The notes under the pieces: generated by a model
Databases searched by the model: none
What the model was told of the DNA's origin: nothing
Seen by the model: only the letters and a program-made list of their open reading frames with translations
Program-made: the position numbers and the translations under genes
Assembly (NCBI GenBank): GCA_017466365.1
Contig: JAFTUG010000012.1
Location: forward strand, 62,001 to 126,000
DNA length: 64,000 nt
Direction of reading: 5' to 3'
From: Clostridia bacterium
GTDB lineage: Bacteria; Bacillota; Clostridia; Oscillospirales; Acutalibacteraceae
In this document: one piece after another, positions 42,510-50,994 of the stretch
Layout of the letters: each line of letters starts with the position of its first letter
Position numbering within the stretch: position 1 is the first letter of the stretch

Positions 42510-42586
42510 CCGCCCGTGGCGCAGTTGGATAACGCAGCAGATTCCGATTCTGAAGAACGGGGGTTCAAATCCCTTCGGGCGGGCCA
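42510..42586 (+). tRNA. tRNA-Arg (anticodon CCG)
   Basis: 77 bases with encoded CCA. Acceptor stem CCGCCCG/CGGGCGG is perfect, the T loop reads TTCAAAT, and the anticodon loop TTCCGAT (anticodon 42544-42546) decodes CGG. Two positions do not pair: C13 with A22 in the D stem and G27 with A43 in the anticodon stem. Confidence 0.93.
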
Positions 42587-45978: not shown

Positions 45979-46006
45979 TTGACATTGAAGAAATTTTTGA
46001 TATAAT
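45979..46006 (+). promoter_or_regulatory. Strong promoter of the aspS-gatC operon
   Basis: TTGACA (45979-45984), 16-base spacer, TATAAT (46001-46006), both perfect matches to the sigma-A consensus. Confidence 0.85.
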
Positions 46007-46012
46007 AACTTG

Positions 46013-46217
46013 TGAAGCCCCGTCTTTTTCGGAAAGTTTAAAAGAGATAGCGCATCATAGGCTGAAAGTGCGCTTTAAATGAGTAGTAAGTACGGCAACA
46101 CTTCCTCGTATAAAAACAAAATATAAAGAGCGGATACCTTTTGGTATCAATACGGGTGGCACCGCGGGTAAATAATAACTCGTCCCGAGAATTGTAATGA
46201 TTCTCGGGGCGTTTTTG
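46013..46217 (+). ncRNA. T-box leader controlling aspS-gatC-gatA-gatB
   Basis: A leader of about 200 bases with AGAGA and GGCTGAAAG of stem I, the T-box GGGTGGCACCGCGGG (46154-46168) of the antiterminator, and a terminator CCCGAGAAT/ATTCTCGGG ending in a T-run (46183-46217). The T-box senses uncharged tRNA and lets the polymerase through when charging falls. The specifier codon is not resolved by eye; an Asn or Asp codon would fit the operon. Confidence 0.88.
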
Positions 46218-46268
46218 TTTTTATCATCATATATTAATTATGTAATTTCAGCATCGGAGGTATGGAAA

Positions 46269-48377
46269 ATGTATAGAACTCATCGTTGCAATGAAATAAG
46301 AGAAGCGCATATCGGTCAGGTTGTTCAGCTTGCAGGCTGGGTAGAGGTTATCCGTGACCACGGCGGCGTTCTTTTTGTTGATTTGCGTGACGAAACAGGC
46401 GTGACACAGGTTGTTGTTCACGACGAAAATCTTCTCAAGGGCGTAAGCAAAGAAACTGTTATTTCGGTTTCGGGCGAGGTTACAAAGCGTGATGAAAGCA
46501 CGGTTAACCCCAAAATCGAAACGGGTCTTGTTGAGCTTGTTGCCGATTCTCTTGAGGTTCTCGGTGTATGCAGCAGAGATTTGCCCTTTGAAATCGGTTC
46601 AAATGATACAAACGAGAATATCCGTCTTAAACACAGATTTCTTGATTTGAGAAATTCCGACCTTCATAATAATATTATTCTCCGTTCAAAGGTTATCGGT
46701 CATATGCGCCGCCTTATGGAGGAGAGGGGATTCCTTGATATTCAGACTCCCATTCTTACCGCATCATCACCTGAAGGCGCAAGAGACTTCCTTGTTCCCA
46801 GCCGTAAGCATCCCGGTAAGTTTTACGCTCTTCCCCAGGCACCGCAGCAGTTTAAGCAGCTTCTTATGGTATCGGGCTTTGATAAATATTATCAGATAGC
46901 TCCTTGCTTCAGAGATGAGGACGCCCGTGCTGACCGTTCGCCCGGTGAATTCTATCAGCTCGACTTTGAAATGGCTTTCTCCACCCAGGAGGAGGTTCTC
47001 AAGGTGTGCGAAGATGTTGTAAGCAACGTTTTCCGCACTTTCTCGGATAAGAAGATTACCGAAACACCGTTCAGATGCATTCCCTACAGAGAGGCAATGG
47101 CAAAATACGGCTCGGATAAACCCGACCTTCGCAACCCTCTTATTATCTGTGACCTCACAGACCTTTTCAAGAGAGTTAAGTTCAAGCCCTTTATGAATAA
47201 GCCCGTAAGAGGCATTGTTGCGCCCTGCAAGAACGAAAGATGGTTCTTTGATAAGTCACTCAATTTTGCTACAAAGCAGGCGAAGATGGCAGGTCTTGCA
47301 CATATCACTCTTCTCAATGCAGAGACCTATGAATTTAAGGATGACCCCATCGTAAAGGTTCTCACAGATGATGAAAAGAGAGAAATCGTTGAGCTTACAG
47401 GTGTTAAGGAAGGCGAAACAATCTTCTTTATCTGCGATACAATTTCCGATGTTGCAGATAAGAACGCAGGTGTTATCCGCACATGGCTCGGCAATGAGCT
47501 TGACCTTATAAACAAGGATTCGTTTGAATTCTGCTTCGTTGTTGACTTCCCCATGTATGAGCGTGACGAAACAACGGATAAGATTATCTTTACTCATAAC
47601 CCGTTCTCAATGCCTCAAGGCGGTCTTAAGGCTCTTGAGACAATGGATCCCTGCGAAATTCTTGCTTATCAGTATGACCTTGTATGCAACGGTATTGAGC
47701 TTGCATCGGGTGCAGTAAGAAACCACAGCCCCGAAATTATGAGAAAAGCCTTTGAAATTGCAGGCTACAGCGAGGATGAGGTTGAAAAGAGATTCAGCGC
47801 ACTTTATAACGCATTCCAGTTCGGCGCACCTCCCCATGCAGGTATGGCACCCGGTGTTGACAGAATTGTAATGCTTCTTGCAGATACAGAAACCATCAGA
47901 GACGTTATTGCATTCCCCCTTGACGGTACTGCACAGGATCAGATGCTCGGTGCACCCGGCGAGGTTACGGAGCTTCAGCTTTATGAAGCAAATGTCAGCA
48001 TCAGAGGCAAGGGCAGCGTTGAAACCCTCGGTTCTGAAGGCGGAGATGCATCTGCATTCGCTTCAACCGTTAAGTCATCAAAGGCGGGTGTTGTTTCAAC
48101 AAAGAGCAAGCTTGATTCTCTTGAATCCGTTAACGAAATCGCTTTCACAGCCGAAGAAAAGAAAGCTATGGAAAAGATTTTCGGCGATATGAAGAAGAGC
48201 GAAGAAGCTCTTGGAAAGATTGATACAGAGAATGTTGAGGCGATGATTTACGTTATGCCCATGACCAATGTTCTCCGTGATGATAAACGTGAACAGCCGT
48301 TTGAACGCAAGGACCTTCTTGCAGGCGCTCCCCAGAGCACGGAAGACAGCTGGCAGGTTCCCAGACTTGTAAAGTGA
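46269..48377 (+). CDS. aspS-gatC: Aspartyl-tRNA synthetase fused to GatC
   Basis: 702 residues from the ATG at 46269 (GGAGG at 46256-46260); the longer open frame begins inside the T-box terminator. Residues 1-580 are a full bacterial AspRS: anticodon-binding OB fold, motif 2 FRDEDARADRSPGEFYQLD, the bacterial insertion domain, and motif 3 GMAPGVDRIVMLLAD. His31 in RDHGGVLFVDLRD marks non-discriminating AspRS, which charges both tRNA-Asp and tRNA-Asn with Asp. After a Ser/Gly-rich linker (581-621) comes a complete GatC (622-702) with FTAEEKKAMEKIF, GKIDTENVEAMIYV, NVLRDD and DSWQVPRLV. The fusion would tether the synthetase to the amidotransferase. gatA follows 10 bases after the stop. Confidence 0.95.
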   Translation: MYRTHRCNEIREAHIGQVVQLAGWVEVIRDHGGVLFVDLRDETGVTQVVVHDENLLKGVSKETVISVSGEVTKRDESTVNPKIETGLVELVADSLEVLGVCSRDLPFEIGSNDTNENIRLKHRFLDLRNSDLHNNIILRSKVIGHMRRLMEERGFLDIQTPILTASSPEGARDFLVPSRKHPGKFYALPQAPQQFKQLLMVSGFDKYYQIAPCFRDEDARADRSPGEFYQLDFEMAFSTQEEVLKVCEDVVSNVFRTFSDKKITETPFRCIPYREAMAKYGSDKPDLRNPLIICDLTDLFKRVKFKPFMNKPVRGIVAPCKNERWFFDKSLNFATKQAKMAGLAHITLLNAETYEFKDDPIVKVLTDDEKREIVELTGVKEGETIFFICDTISDVADKNAGVIRTWLGNELDLINKDSFEFCFVVDFPMYERDETTDKIIFTHNPFSMPQGGLKALETMDPCEILAYQYDLVCNGIELASGAVRNHSPEIMRKAFEIAGYSEDEVEKRFSALYNAFQFGAPPHAGMAPGVDRIVMLLADTETIRDVIAFPLDGTAQDQMLGAPGEVTELQLYEANVSIRGKGSVETLGSEGGDASAFASTVKSSKAGVVSTKSKLDSLESVNEIAFTAEEKKAMEKIFGDMKKSEEALGKIDTENVEAMIYVMPMTNVLRDDKREQPFERKDLLAGAPQSTEDSWQVPRLVK

Positions 48378-48387
48378 GGTGCTGAAA

Positions 48388-49578
48388 ATGAGTTATTATA
48401 TCAATGAAATAAATAAAGCAGGAAAAATCGCGGTTGACGATACAATTCTCGTTAAAGATGTTCCTGCAACTGCAGGTTCAAAAATGCTTGAAAACTTCAA
48501 GCCTCTTTTCAGCGCAGAAGCCGTTGAAAGACTTGAAAAGGCAGGCTATGCAATTTCAGGTAAAACAAATGTCGGCGAATTCGGTCTTGACCTTCTCGGC
48601 GAATTCTCAAGCTTTGAAGCAGTAACCGAAAACGGCAATCTTGCAGGTGCTGCAGCATCGCTTGTTGCAAAGGGCGAGATCAAGGCAGCTCTTAACGTTG
48701 ACCTCAACGGCGCACCCAGACGTGCAGCTGCTGTTTCAGGTGTTGACTTTATAAAGCCTACCTACGGCACAGTTTCGCGCTATGGTATCATCGCTTGTGC
48801 TTGCTCGGGAGAGCAGATAGGTGTTACCGCTTCAAATGCCGCAGATATGAAAGAGATTCTTTCGGCTATCGCAGGACATGACGATAAAGACGGCACAAGC
48901 CTTCCCGCTGAAAAATATGAATATTCACTTGATGAAAATGTTTCGGCAATGGAAATCTGCATCGTAAAAGAGCTTTATGATGCTGCAAGTGCCGAAGTTA
49001 AGGCAAATATCGATGCCTATGCAAAGAAGCTTGAAGCTCTCGGCGCAAAGGTTGAAACCGTTTCTCTTGATATCGTTTCCGATGTTCAAACCGCATGGCA
49101 GATTCTTATGTCGGCTGAAACAACAAACAACCTTTCAAGATTTGACGGCGTTAAGTACGGATACAGAACTCCCGAATATAAAAATATCGATGAGCTCTAT
49201 GTAAAGAGCAGAAGCGAAAGCATGAACTTCCTTACAAAGGCAACAATCATCTACGGTTCGGACGTTCTTTCAAAGGGCAGATACGAAAACTGCTACGATA
49301 AGGCACTCCGTATCAGAAGAATTGCTTGTGATAAGACAAGAGAAATTCTCGCATCATACGATGCAATCCTTGCTCCCGCATGCGGAAAGGCAAGCTATCA
49401 GTCTTATGATATCCTTGAAGCTTTCGGAAAGGTGTTTGAAGAAAGCCTTTACACGGCAATTCCGAGCATAACAGGTATGCCGGCGGTTGTTACAAAGGGT
49501 GTTCAGCTTATCGCCGATTCATATAAAGAGAGCGTTCTTTTAAGTATCGCTCATACCGTTGAAGGAATGGAGGCATAA
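48388..49578 (+). CDS. gatA: GatA-like subunit lacking the amidase serines
   Basis: 396 residues from the ATG at 48388 (GAGGTG upstream), against about 485 in normal GatA. It aligns with GatA from ILVKDVPATAGSKML onward, through GKTNVGEF, IKPTYGTVSRYG, IAGHDDKDGTS, RFDGVKYGYRTPEY and ITGMPAV. The first 60 or so residues are missing. The catalytic Lys is kept (K23), but the GGSSGGSA segment has become NLAGAAAS, replacing the cis-Ser by Leu85, and DTGGSIRQPA has become DLNGAPRRAA, replacing the nucleophile Ser by Ala109 (codon 48712-48714). It should not hydrolyse glutamine. Its frame is intact and its codon use is like that of its neighbours, so it is not a decaying gene. Confidence 0.88.
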   Translation: MSYYINEINKAGKIAVDDTILVKDVPATAGSKMLENFKPLFSAEAVERLEKAGYAISGKTNVGEFGLDLLGEFSSFEAVTENGNLAGAAASLVAKGEIKAALNVDLNGAPRRAAAVSGVDFIKPTYGTVSRYGIIACACSGEQIGVTASNAADMKEILSAIAGHDDKDGTSLPAEKYEYSLDENVSAMEICIVKELYDAASAEVKANIDAYAKKLEALGAKVETVSLDIVSDVQTAWQILMSAETTNNLSRFDGVKYGYRTPEYKNIDELYVKSRSESMNFLTKATIIYGSDVLSKGRYENCYDKALRIRRIACDKTREILASYDAILAPACGKASYQSYDILEAFGKVFEESLYTAIPSITGMPAVVTKGVQLIADSYKESVLLSIAHTVEGMEA

Positions 49579-49581
49579 AAG

Positions 49582-50994
49582 ATGAAATACGAACTTGTTA
49601 TAGGTCTTGAAACTCATGTTGAGCTTTCAACAGACTCAAAGCTTTTCTGCTCCTGCGGCGGTCATTCAAGCCCCAAAGAGCCCAACGACTGCGTATGCCC
49701 TGCCTGCAGCGGTATGCCCGGTATGCTCCCCGTAACAAATAAGCACGCAATTGAGCTTGCCGTTAAAGCAGGATTTATGCTCAACTGCAAAATTAATCAG
49801 TATACAACCTTTGATAAAAAGAGCTACTATTATCCCGACCTTCCCTGCGCTTACCAGATAACGCAGTGGTTTCATCCCGTTTGTGTTGAGGGCAGCGTTG
49901 ATATCGGCGGCAGACAGATCGGCATTAAGCAGATTCATGTTGAAGAAGACGCAGGCAAGCTTGTTCACGATGAAGCAACAAACACTTCATTCGTTGACTA
50001 TAACCGCACAAGCGTTCCTCTTATAGAAATCGTAAGCAAGCCTGATTTCCGTTCATCGGATGAGGTTATTGCTTACCTTAAGAAGCTTAAATCAAGCCTT
50101 CAGTTTGCAGGTATTTCCGAATGTGAAGAAGGCGCAATGAGATGCGACGTTAATATTTCCGTTCGTCCCGAAGGTTCAAACGAACTCGGTGTTCGTTCCG
50201 AAATCAAGAACATGAGCTCACTTTCCGAAATCAAGGATGCAATTGAATTTGAGAAGGTTCGTCACGTTGATGCAATTGAGCGCCATACCGAAATGCTCGT
50301 TCAGGAAACACGCCGCTGGGATGACGTTAAGAGACGCACATTCCCCATGAGAAACAAGGAAACTGCGGCTGATTACCGTTATTTCCCCGATCCCAACCTC
50401 ATGCCTATTATCATTGATGATGAATGGCTTGATAAGATAAAGGCAAGCATGCCCGCAACCTCCGAGGAAAAGACAAAATATTATGAGGATATGGGCATTG
50501 CAACAAAGGAAGCATCTGTTCTTTCTTCGGACAGAAAGCTCTCCGATATGTTTGATAAGGTTGTTGCAATGGGCAGAAGCCCCAAGGCTGTTGCAGGCTG
50601 GATTCTCACAGAGTGTATGGGTCAGATGAAACGTCTTGAACTTGATTCACTTGATATCAGCCCCGAAAAGCTTGCAAGAATTATCGAGCTTGCAGAGAGC
50701 GGTGAAATAACCCGTGCGGCAGGCAAGAAGATCCTTTCAGCAGTATTTGAAAACGATGTTGATGTTGATAAATTCTGCGAAGAAAACGGACTCAATGCCA
50801 AGGTTGATGAATCTTTCATTTCCGATACGGTTAACCGTGTTATTGCCGAAAATGAAAAGGCAGTTGCAGACTACAAGAGCGGTAAAACAAAGGCTGCACA
50901 GGCACTTTTCGGAAGCGTTATGAAGGAACTCAAGGGCACAGGCGACCCCGCAGTTATCAGAACACTTCTTGAAGAAAAACTCAAGAGTCTTTAA
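49582..50994 (+). CDS. gatB: Asp/Glu-tRNA amidotransferase subunit B
   Basis: 470 residues; GGAGG lies within the end of gatA. The transferase domain is intact: VIGLETHVELSTDSKLFC, the zinc-type Cys cluster CSC...CVCPACSGMPG, YYYPDLPCAYQITQW, IHVEEDAGKLVHDE and VDYNRTSVPLIEIVS. The C-terminal YqeY-like tail (QALFGSVMKELKG) that contacts the tRNA is present. GatB activates the carboxyl of Asp-tRNA-Asn or Glu-tRNA-Gln and adds ammonia. Last gene of the T-box operon. Confidence 0.95.
   Translation: MKYELVIGLETHVELSTDSKLFCSCGGHSSPKEPNDCVCPACSGMPGMLPVTNKHAIELAVKAGFMLNCKINQYTTFDKKSYYYPDLPCAYQITQWFHPVCVEGSVDIGGRQIGIKQIHVEEDAGKLVHDEATNTSFVDYNRTSVPLIEIVSKPDFRSSDEVIAYLKKLKSSLQFAGISECEEGAMRCDVNISVRPEGSNELGVRSEIKNMSSLSEIKDAIEFEKVRHVDAIERHTEMLVQETRRWDDVKRRTFPMRNKETAADYRYFPDPNLMPIIIDDEWLDKIKASMPATSEEKTKYYEDMGIATKEASVLSSDRKLSDMFDKVVAMGRSPKAVAGWILTECMGQMKRLELDSLDISPEKLARIIELAESGEITRAAGKKILSAVFENDVDVDKFCEENGLNAKVDESFISDTVNRVIAENEKAVADYKSGKTKAAQALFGSVMKELKGTGDPAVIRTLLEEKLKSL

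Follow-up and report, generated by a model that had tools for sequence, protein, structure and literature searches.

An AspRS-GatCAB operon of Clostridia with a glutaminase-dead GatA: a probable tRNA-dependent route to asparagine

The analysis of the window, a stretch of 64,000 nucleotides from a genome of the Clostridia, revealed an operon for AspRS, GatC, GatA and GatB that probably encodes an Asn-directed, tRNA-dependent amidotransferase which has lost its glutaminase. Judged from the sequences, there is a strong case that the glutaminase is gone, that GatB is kept, and that the system is Asn-directed, old and under selection; from these data we infer complex formation, specificity, activity and the ammonia source of the enzyme. 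In textbook GatCAB an ammonia tunnel connects two active sites. In the operon enzyme a non-discriminating AspRS, fused to GatC in the window, would charge tRNA-Asn with Asp, and the Asp side chain would be phosphorylated and then amidated by GatB. The dead GatA would hold the complex together and possibly contribute to the ammonia path, with a supply from solution (free NH4+) or from a partner protein. The Asn-tRNA product would feed translation and give AsnA-less cells an Asn route, with free Asn recycled by AsnRS where this enzyme is present.

The operon and its altered GatA

The following features were located in the window:

45988..46190, + strand: T-box leader, divergent; Rfam T-box (RF00230) match of 49.1 bits, E 4e-10 in 261 bases
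46097-46099, + strand: candidate Asn specifier AAC, within the leader
46154-46166, + strand: antiterminator GGGTGGCACCGCG, within the leader
46184..46221, + strand: intrinsic terminator of the leader, hairpin and T run, read off the sequence
46269..48377, + strand: AspRS with C-terminal GatC domain, 702 aa; ATG at 46269, start placed by homology; His in 'RDHGG'
48388..49578, + strand: glutaminase-dead GatA, 396 aa; Asp17, Leu85, Ala109, Thr286 and Ser353 replace canonical Lys, cis-Ser, Ser, Arg and Asp
49582..50994, + strand: GatB, 470 aa; ATP/Mg/transamidase residues present; Cys89 where the canonical protein has Lys

The GatA frame is open over 396 codons, as had been claimed, and the good ribosome site noted upstream of it is a GAGG ending 8 nt 5′ of the ATG. 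The product matches the Pfam Amidase family (2.2e-51), and its TIGR00132 gatA score of 252 bits is far under the 481-bit cut-off. Residue 14 aligns with position 63 of the GatA model in a profile alignment and lies opposite residues 63-69 of the solved chains 3h0l and 3al0, so that about 50-60 N-terminal residues are absent, close to the 60 given originally. Alignment with canonical rows also bore out the replacement of the cis-Ser by Leu85 and of the nucleophile Ser by Ala109. The original prediction further held that the catalytic lysine remains as Lys23, which is the wrong lysine: the Lys of IAVKDN/VAIKDN in solved GatA chains aligns over Asp17. Among 18 canonical GatA rows, selected by us, 17 have Lys at the Asp17 position and merely 11 at that of Lys23. 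Both glutamine-binding residues, overlooked earlier, are gone as well (Arg to T286, Asp to S353); they were placed by the bacterial numbering.

The same sites were read across carriers of the operon, 83 loci in all, which after removal of 7 duplicates gave 76 distinct loci as the basis of the GatA residue and leader counts. No readable locus retains the catalytic Lys (0 of 75), the cis-Ser (0 of 76), the glutamine-binding Arg (0 of 76) or the glutamine-binding Asp (0 of 75); the nucleophile position is still Ser in 16 of 76. Hence none of the 76 operon loci has the Ser-cisSer-Lys glutaminase triad of GatA. For yeast GatFAB the triad is named together with R334 and D418 in the accessible part of PMC4027206.

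Compared with canonical GatCAB, the window operon has a GatC subunit, the GatA fold as judged by sequence, with the motifs KPTYGTVSRYG and RFDGVKYGYR kept, and a GatB with the kinase/transamidase residues. It differs in that all five catalytic and glutamine-binding positions of GatA are changed, GatA is short at its N-terminus, and Lys89 of GatB is replaced.

Altered GatA copies were also seen elsewhere. A GatA in the canonical GatB clade (L094:1480-2811) is without GGSSGG and DTGGS and has Glu at the catalytic Lys; AsnA is present in its genome (G094). This is perhaps a second, independent glutaminase loss. In L170:1453-2922 (G549) a GatA adjoining GatC and GatB has Lys changed to Glu and GGSSGG to GGASAG, with DTGGS kept, and is possibly a further inactive copy. 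A degenerate GatA-like frame of 412 codons (L148:4838-6073, G037) has no GatB or AspRS in the flank examined, and its genome has a second GatA with intact motifs.

Spread and conservation of the operon

A pattern scan of a species-genome collection found 50 related loci with 55-95% identity. In the order sample, a profile built from 44 members detected the dead-GatA family in 17 of 394 genomes with scores of at least 412 bits, canonical GatA scoring below 300 bits; in the class sample it did so in 13 of 391 genomes with at least 478 bits, canonical GatA reaching 312 bits. The window's own genome is included in both counts. The substitutions are therefore not private to one assembly, and a private change or an assembly artefact is ruled out. 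A plasmid search gave only matches below 60% identity, the eight matches listed being at about 35%.

The order AspRS, GatC, dead GatA, GatB was found wherever the DNA reaches; in L139 there is a gap between gatC and gatA. In a GatB tree of 73 rows, which were selected by us, the 41 operon rows form one clade (100/100) separate from the 32 canonical rows. The clade divides into a long type of 29 rows and a second branch of 12. GatA frames of the second branch have 298-387 codons, and their catalytic segment has been changed, cut down or removed, with L030, L138 and L173 as stages of the change.

GatB residues E10, H12, E122, E149, N191 and S193 are identical in 29/29 long-type and 18/18 canonical rows; one of the 12 second-branch rows has Gln at E122. 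These six were placed by motif from yeast residues, yeast T189 lying outside the tested set. Position 89, by contrast, counts against our explanation: Lys, which we take to sit at the ammonia tunnel, is present in 17 of 18 canonical rows (Arg in the other) and in 0 of 41 operon rows. At least 80% of the long-type rows keep 87 of the 107 GatB columns, and 49 of the 114 GatA columns, that are invariant in canonical proteins.

Purifying selection is indicated by dN/dS values of 0.05-0.13 for GatA (13 pairs), a comparison that the original prediction had called for, of 0.01-0.10 for GatB (12 pairs) and of 0.01-0.08 for AspRS (13 pairs); the pairs were selected by us, and dS was saturated or above 1 in some of them. 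It could be argued that GatA is a remnant in decay and that the operon is being lost. This would agree with the two copies of 76 that are damaged, one split into two frames in its assembly (L082/L152, G014) and one with an internal TAG (L132, G163), which are also points against our own explanation, and with the faster evolution of GatA and GatC compared with AspRS and GatB. We nevertheless regard decay as very improbable given the low GatA dN/dS, the length of 388 codons or more in 74 of the 76 frames, the 49 retained GatA columns, the single GatB clade and the exclusion of AsnA from carriers described below. A pseudogene was rejected on dN/dS and frame lengths. Because the site is lost in 76 loci, the GatB residues are intact, selection is purifying and the operon rows form one clade, this GatCAB would be unable to make its own ammonia; the central proposal made earlier, of such an enzyme with a structural GatA, is well supported.

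Evidence for direction towards asparagine

The window leader scored below the Rfam gathering score of 93 bits, which is a point against our explanation. The gathering score was reached ahead of aspS in 8 of 22 loci searched, and because of its place in these eight scored T-boxes AAC was taken as the specifier; we infer the same role for AAC in the window leader. Of the 68 distinct carrier loci in which the upstream DNA is long enough, 65 have an antiterminator 5′ of aspS, and in 63 of these 65 the AAC motif precedes it. Second-branch loci show these elements less often (antiterminator 6/10, AAC motif 2/6), again a point against, and neither element was found with the two sibling aspS genes examined. 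In the window leader (45988-46190) Stem I is divergent, and the score is sub-gathering despite a clear antiterminator. Many carrier loci have a leader of similar form, 'TAAG...GG(C/G)AACACTTC', which may represent a T-box subtype.

The window AspRS scored 743 bits with the aspS model, and its C-terminus is a GatC domain (PF02686, 1.5e-10; TIGR00135, 49.7 bits against a cut-off of 47.1). This fusion, missed earlier, puts GatC and AspRS in a single frame in 49 of 74 distinct loci. At the position of P. aeruginosa H31, where His rather than Leu presumably marks a non-discriminating AspRS, His is present in 84/84 operon rows, a count that includes duplicates and the second branch, and Leu in 2/2 siblings. 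A second determinant, which we take to be Gly in non-discriminating and Lys in discriminating enzymes, is E, D, N, S or A in the operon rows, never Lys and never Gly, and Lys in the siblings. No paper on the His/Leu determinant was found in the open-licence PMC literature. The best solved match of the operon AspRS is the AspRS of entry 4wj3, to our understanding the P. aeruginosa transamidosome. Fusion by itself does not track glutaminase loss: in L009 (G050) a more distant AspRS-GatC fusion adjoins a GatA whose motifs are intact.

Among 50 loci scanned, two tRNA-Asn genes were found, and both have the U1-A72 pair that GatCAB requires according to the accessible part of PMC4206432. One tRNA-Asn gene (L080:2573-2647) lies directly 5′ of the leader and operon. 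The sole tRNA gene found in the window is a tRNA-Arg (CCG) at 42510-42586.

The operon and asnA exclude each other in the genomes compared. In the order sample asnA was found in 0/17 carriers and in 245/377 other genomes (p 4e-8), 239 of the 245 matches being over the cut-off; when 10 second-branch carriers are moved to the carriers the counts become 0/27 and 245/367. In the window's genus they are 0/12 carriers and 20/25 non-carriers (p 3e-6). These statistics treat genomes as independent, and the counts cover the order sample and the window's genus; 12 further carriers of the class sample lie outside them. Eight more genera of the order sample contain asnA-less carriers alongside asnA-bearing non-carriers. 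Two points tell against the operon as AsnA's substitute: five of the 25 non-carrier genus-mates are without AsnA (63-88% complete), and asnB is over the cut-off in two of the 12 genus carriers, G002 and G011. On our best reading the operon would take AsnA's place, making Asn on tRNA with free or partner ammonia.

It was also suggested originally that genomes with the dead GatA be checked for asnS. A search for asnB and asnS in 60 relatives gave a divided answer: AsnRS is present in 8 of the 12 genus carriers and was not found in the other four, whose completeness is 74-81%. Both GlnRS and a second AspRS-like gene are present in the window's genome. Since AsnRS and GlnRS are there, translation may not need the operon, and the complex might amidate something other than Asp-tRNA-Asn or act as a regulator. 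This is improbable in view of the Asn T-box, the His signature of AspRS, the exclusion of AsnA and the tRNA-Asn gene directly 5′ of the L080 operon.

Ammonia source and relation to known systems

As the GatA-like subunit has lost its active site, ammonia must come from elsewhere, and we give free ammonia about an even chance of being the source. Ammonium chloride is used in vitro by yeast GatFAB (accessible part of PMC4027206), and AsnA is ammonia-dependent (accessible part of PMC4206432). A second GatA, one of the donors originally proposed, is unlikely for the window, whose 79.6% complete MAG has one Amidase gene; the 97% complete genus-mate G021 likewise has a single Amidase gene, and a second GatA was rejected as the general donor. 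One carrier, G046, has a second GatA with intact motifs. Loci L072 and L074 have a further GatA-GatB pair 3′ of the dead-GatA operon, which suggests labour divided between two amidotransferases.

The other original suggestion, ammonia from another amidase, gains a candidate in family A2, an asparaginase-fold protein resembling the archaeal GatD that partners a GatB-like subunit in GatDE. That A2 replaced the glutaminase and releases ammonia for GatB is possible, though we consider it rather doubtful. When genes neighbouring the operon were clustered in the search for an ammonia source (86 loci), A2 was the commonest cluster (20 loci; the next had no more than 7). It flanks 24 of 73 distinct GatB-containing carrier loci, four of the 73 having less than 1.5 kb behind gatB. 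In 15 of the 24 linked loci it follows gatB on the same strand, 12 times within 110 nt. A2 just behind gatB should be under the Asn T-box and would therefore be odd as an Asn-destroying enzyme. In 9 of the 24, however, A2 is upstream, outside the T-box unit (same strand in four, divergent in five, duplicates removed).

Genome-wide, A2 was found in 27/40 carriers (170 bits or more) and in 0/40 controls, counted at 100 bits or more, with one weak match on each side (G222, 37.7 bits; G056, 64.2 bits); 35 of the 40 controls have asnA. As 13 of the 27 positive carriers contributed their own protein to the profile, contributors were removed, leaving 14/27 carriers and 0/40 controls. The search covered 80 of 110 genomes; one control, 12 genomes of the second branch (including G041) and 17 others lay outside it. 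Two matches have one in-frame stop (G773, G564).

GatD (1zq1, 2d6f) is among the best solved matches of A2, after asparaginase 9ufr/9ufq, and the LSENM motif is common to A2 and 2d6f. The family is similar to type I asparaginase and to archaeal GatD, with scores well under both cut-offs; the GatD models, whose cut-offs are 310 and 324, gave 53-88 bits. Of the catalytic site, which we take to be Thr, Thr, Asp and Lys as in asparaginases, A2 keeps both Thr and the Asp; the position aligned to the Lys is variable, so the full site of archaeal GatD is lacking, as is the N-terminal part of GatD, and the partnership of A2 with GatB is conjectural. Its distribution also tells against A2 as the donor: it is present in just 3 of the 12 carriers of the window's genus, was not found in G021, and has no copy in the flanks of the 12 second-branch loci. 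It is linked in five close loci (L048, L049, L051, L059, L083), and a divergent subtype (192 bits) occurs unlinked in the window's genome. A fuller scheme, in which the clade dropped the amidase-type glutaminase once, a GatD-like A2 with a rebuilt site feeds GatB and A2-less lineages use free ammonia, is tentative and unlikely as a whole. If it is true, the A2-served system is a chimera that combines the design of bacterial GatCAB with that of archaeal GatDE, and the lineages living on free ammonia include most of the window's genus.

The operon has counterparts among known systems. Clostridium acetobutylicum reportedly carries an aspS2-gatCAB operon under Asn T-box control for Asn synthesis (work attributed to Saad, 2012 and 2013). 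The likeness lies in the second AspRS and gatCAB under T-box control for Asn synthesis; the operon described here differs in its dead GatA and, in many loci, in the fusion of GatC to AspRS. AsnA likewise makes Asn from Asp and ammonia, and the operon replaces it in the genomes compared, but the product of AsnA is the free amino acid, made without tRNA. According to the accessible part of PMC4206432, Deinococcus, Thermus and Bdellovibrio make Asn on tRNA alongside AsnRS and GlnRS, keeping GatCAB for Asn without asparagine synthetase; GatA site loss is not reported in that part, and the second AspRS of Deinococcus and Thermus is of archaeal type, whereas that of the operon is bacterial. In the open-licence PMC literature, an incomplete corpus, we found no report of a dead GatA, an ammonia-only GatCAB or a bacterial GatD-like partner.

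Annotation would name the operon's GatA gatA or overlook it, the latter because the protein scores under the GatA cut-off. A clade in which one GatCAB site is lost and the other kept makes the non-glutaminase role of GatA directly testable, as well as how ammonia enters GatCAB and whether tRNA amidation runs on free ammonia in cells. Many gut Clostridia carry the operon and, with it, an apparent route to Asn that is built directly on tRNA.
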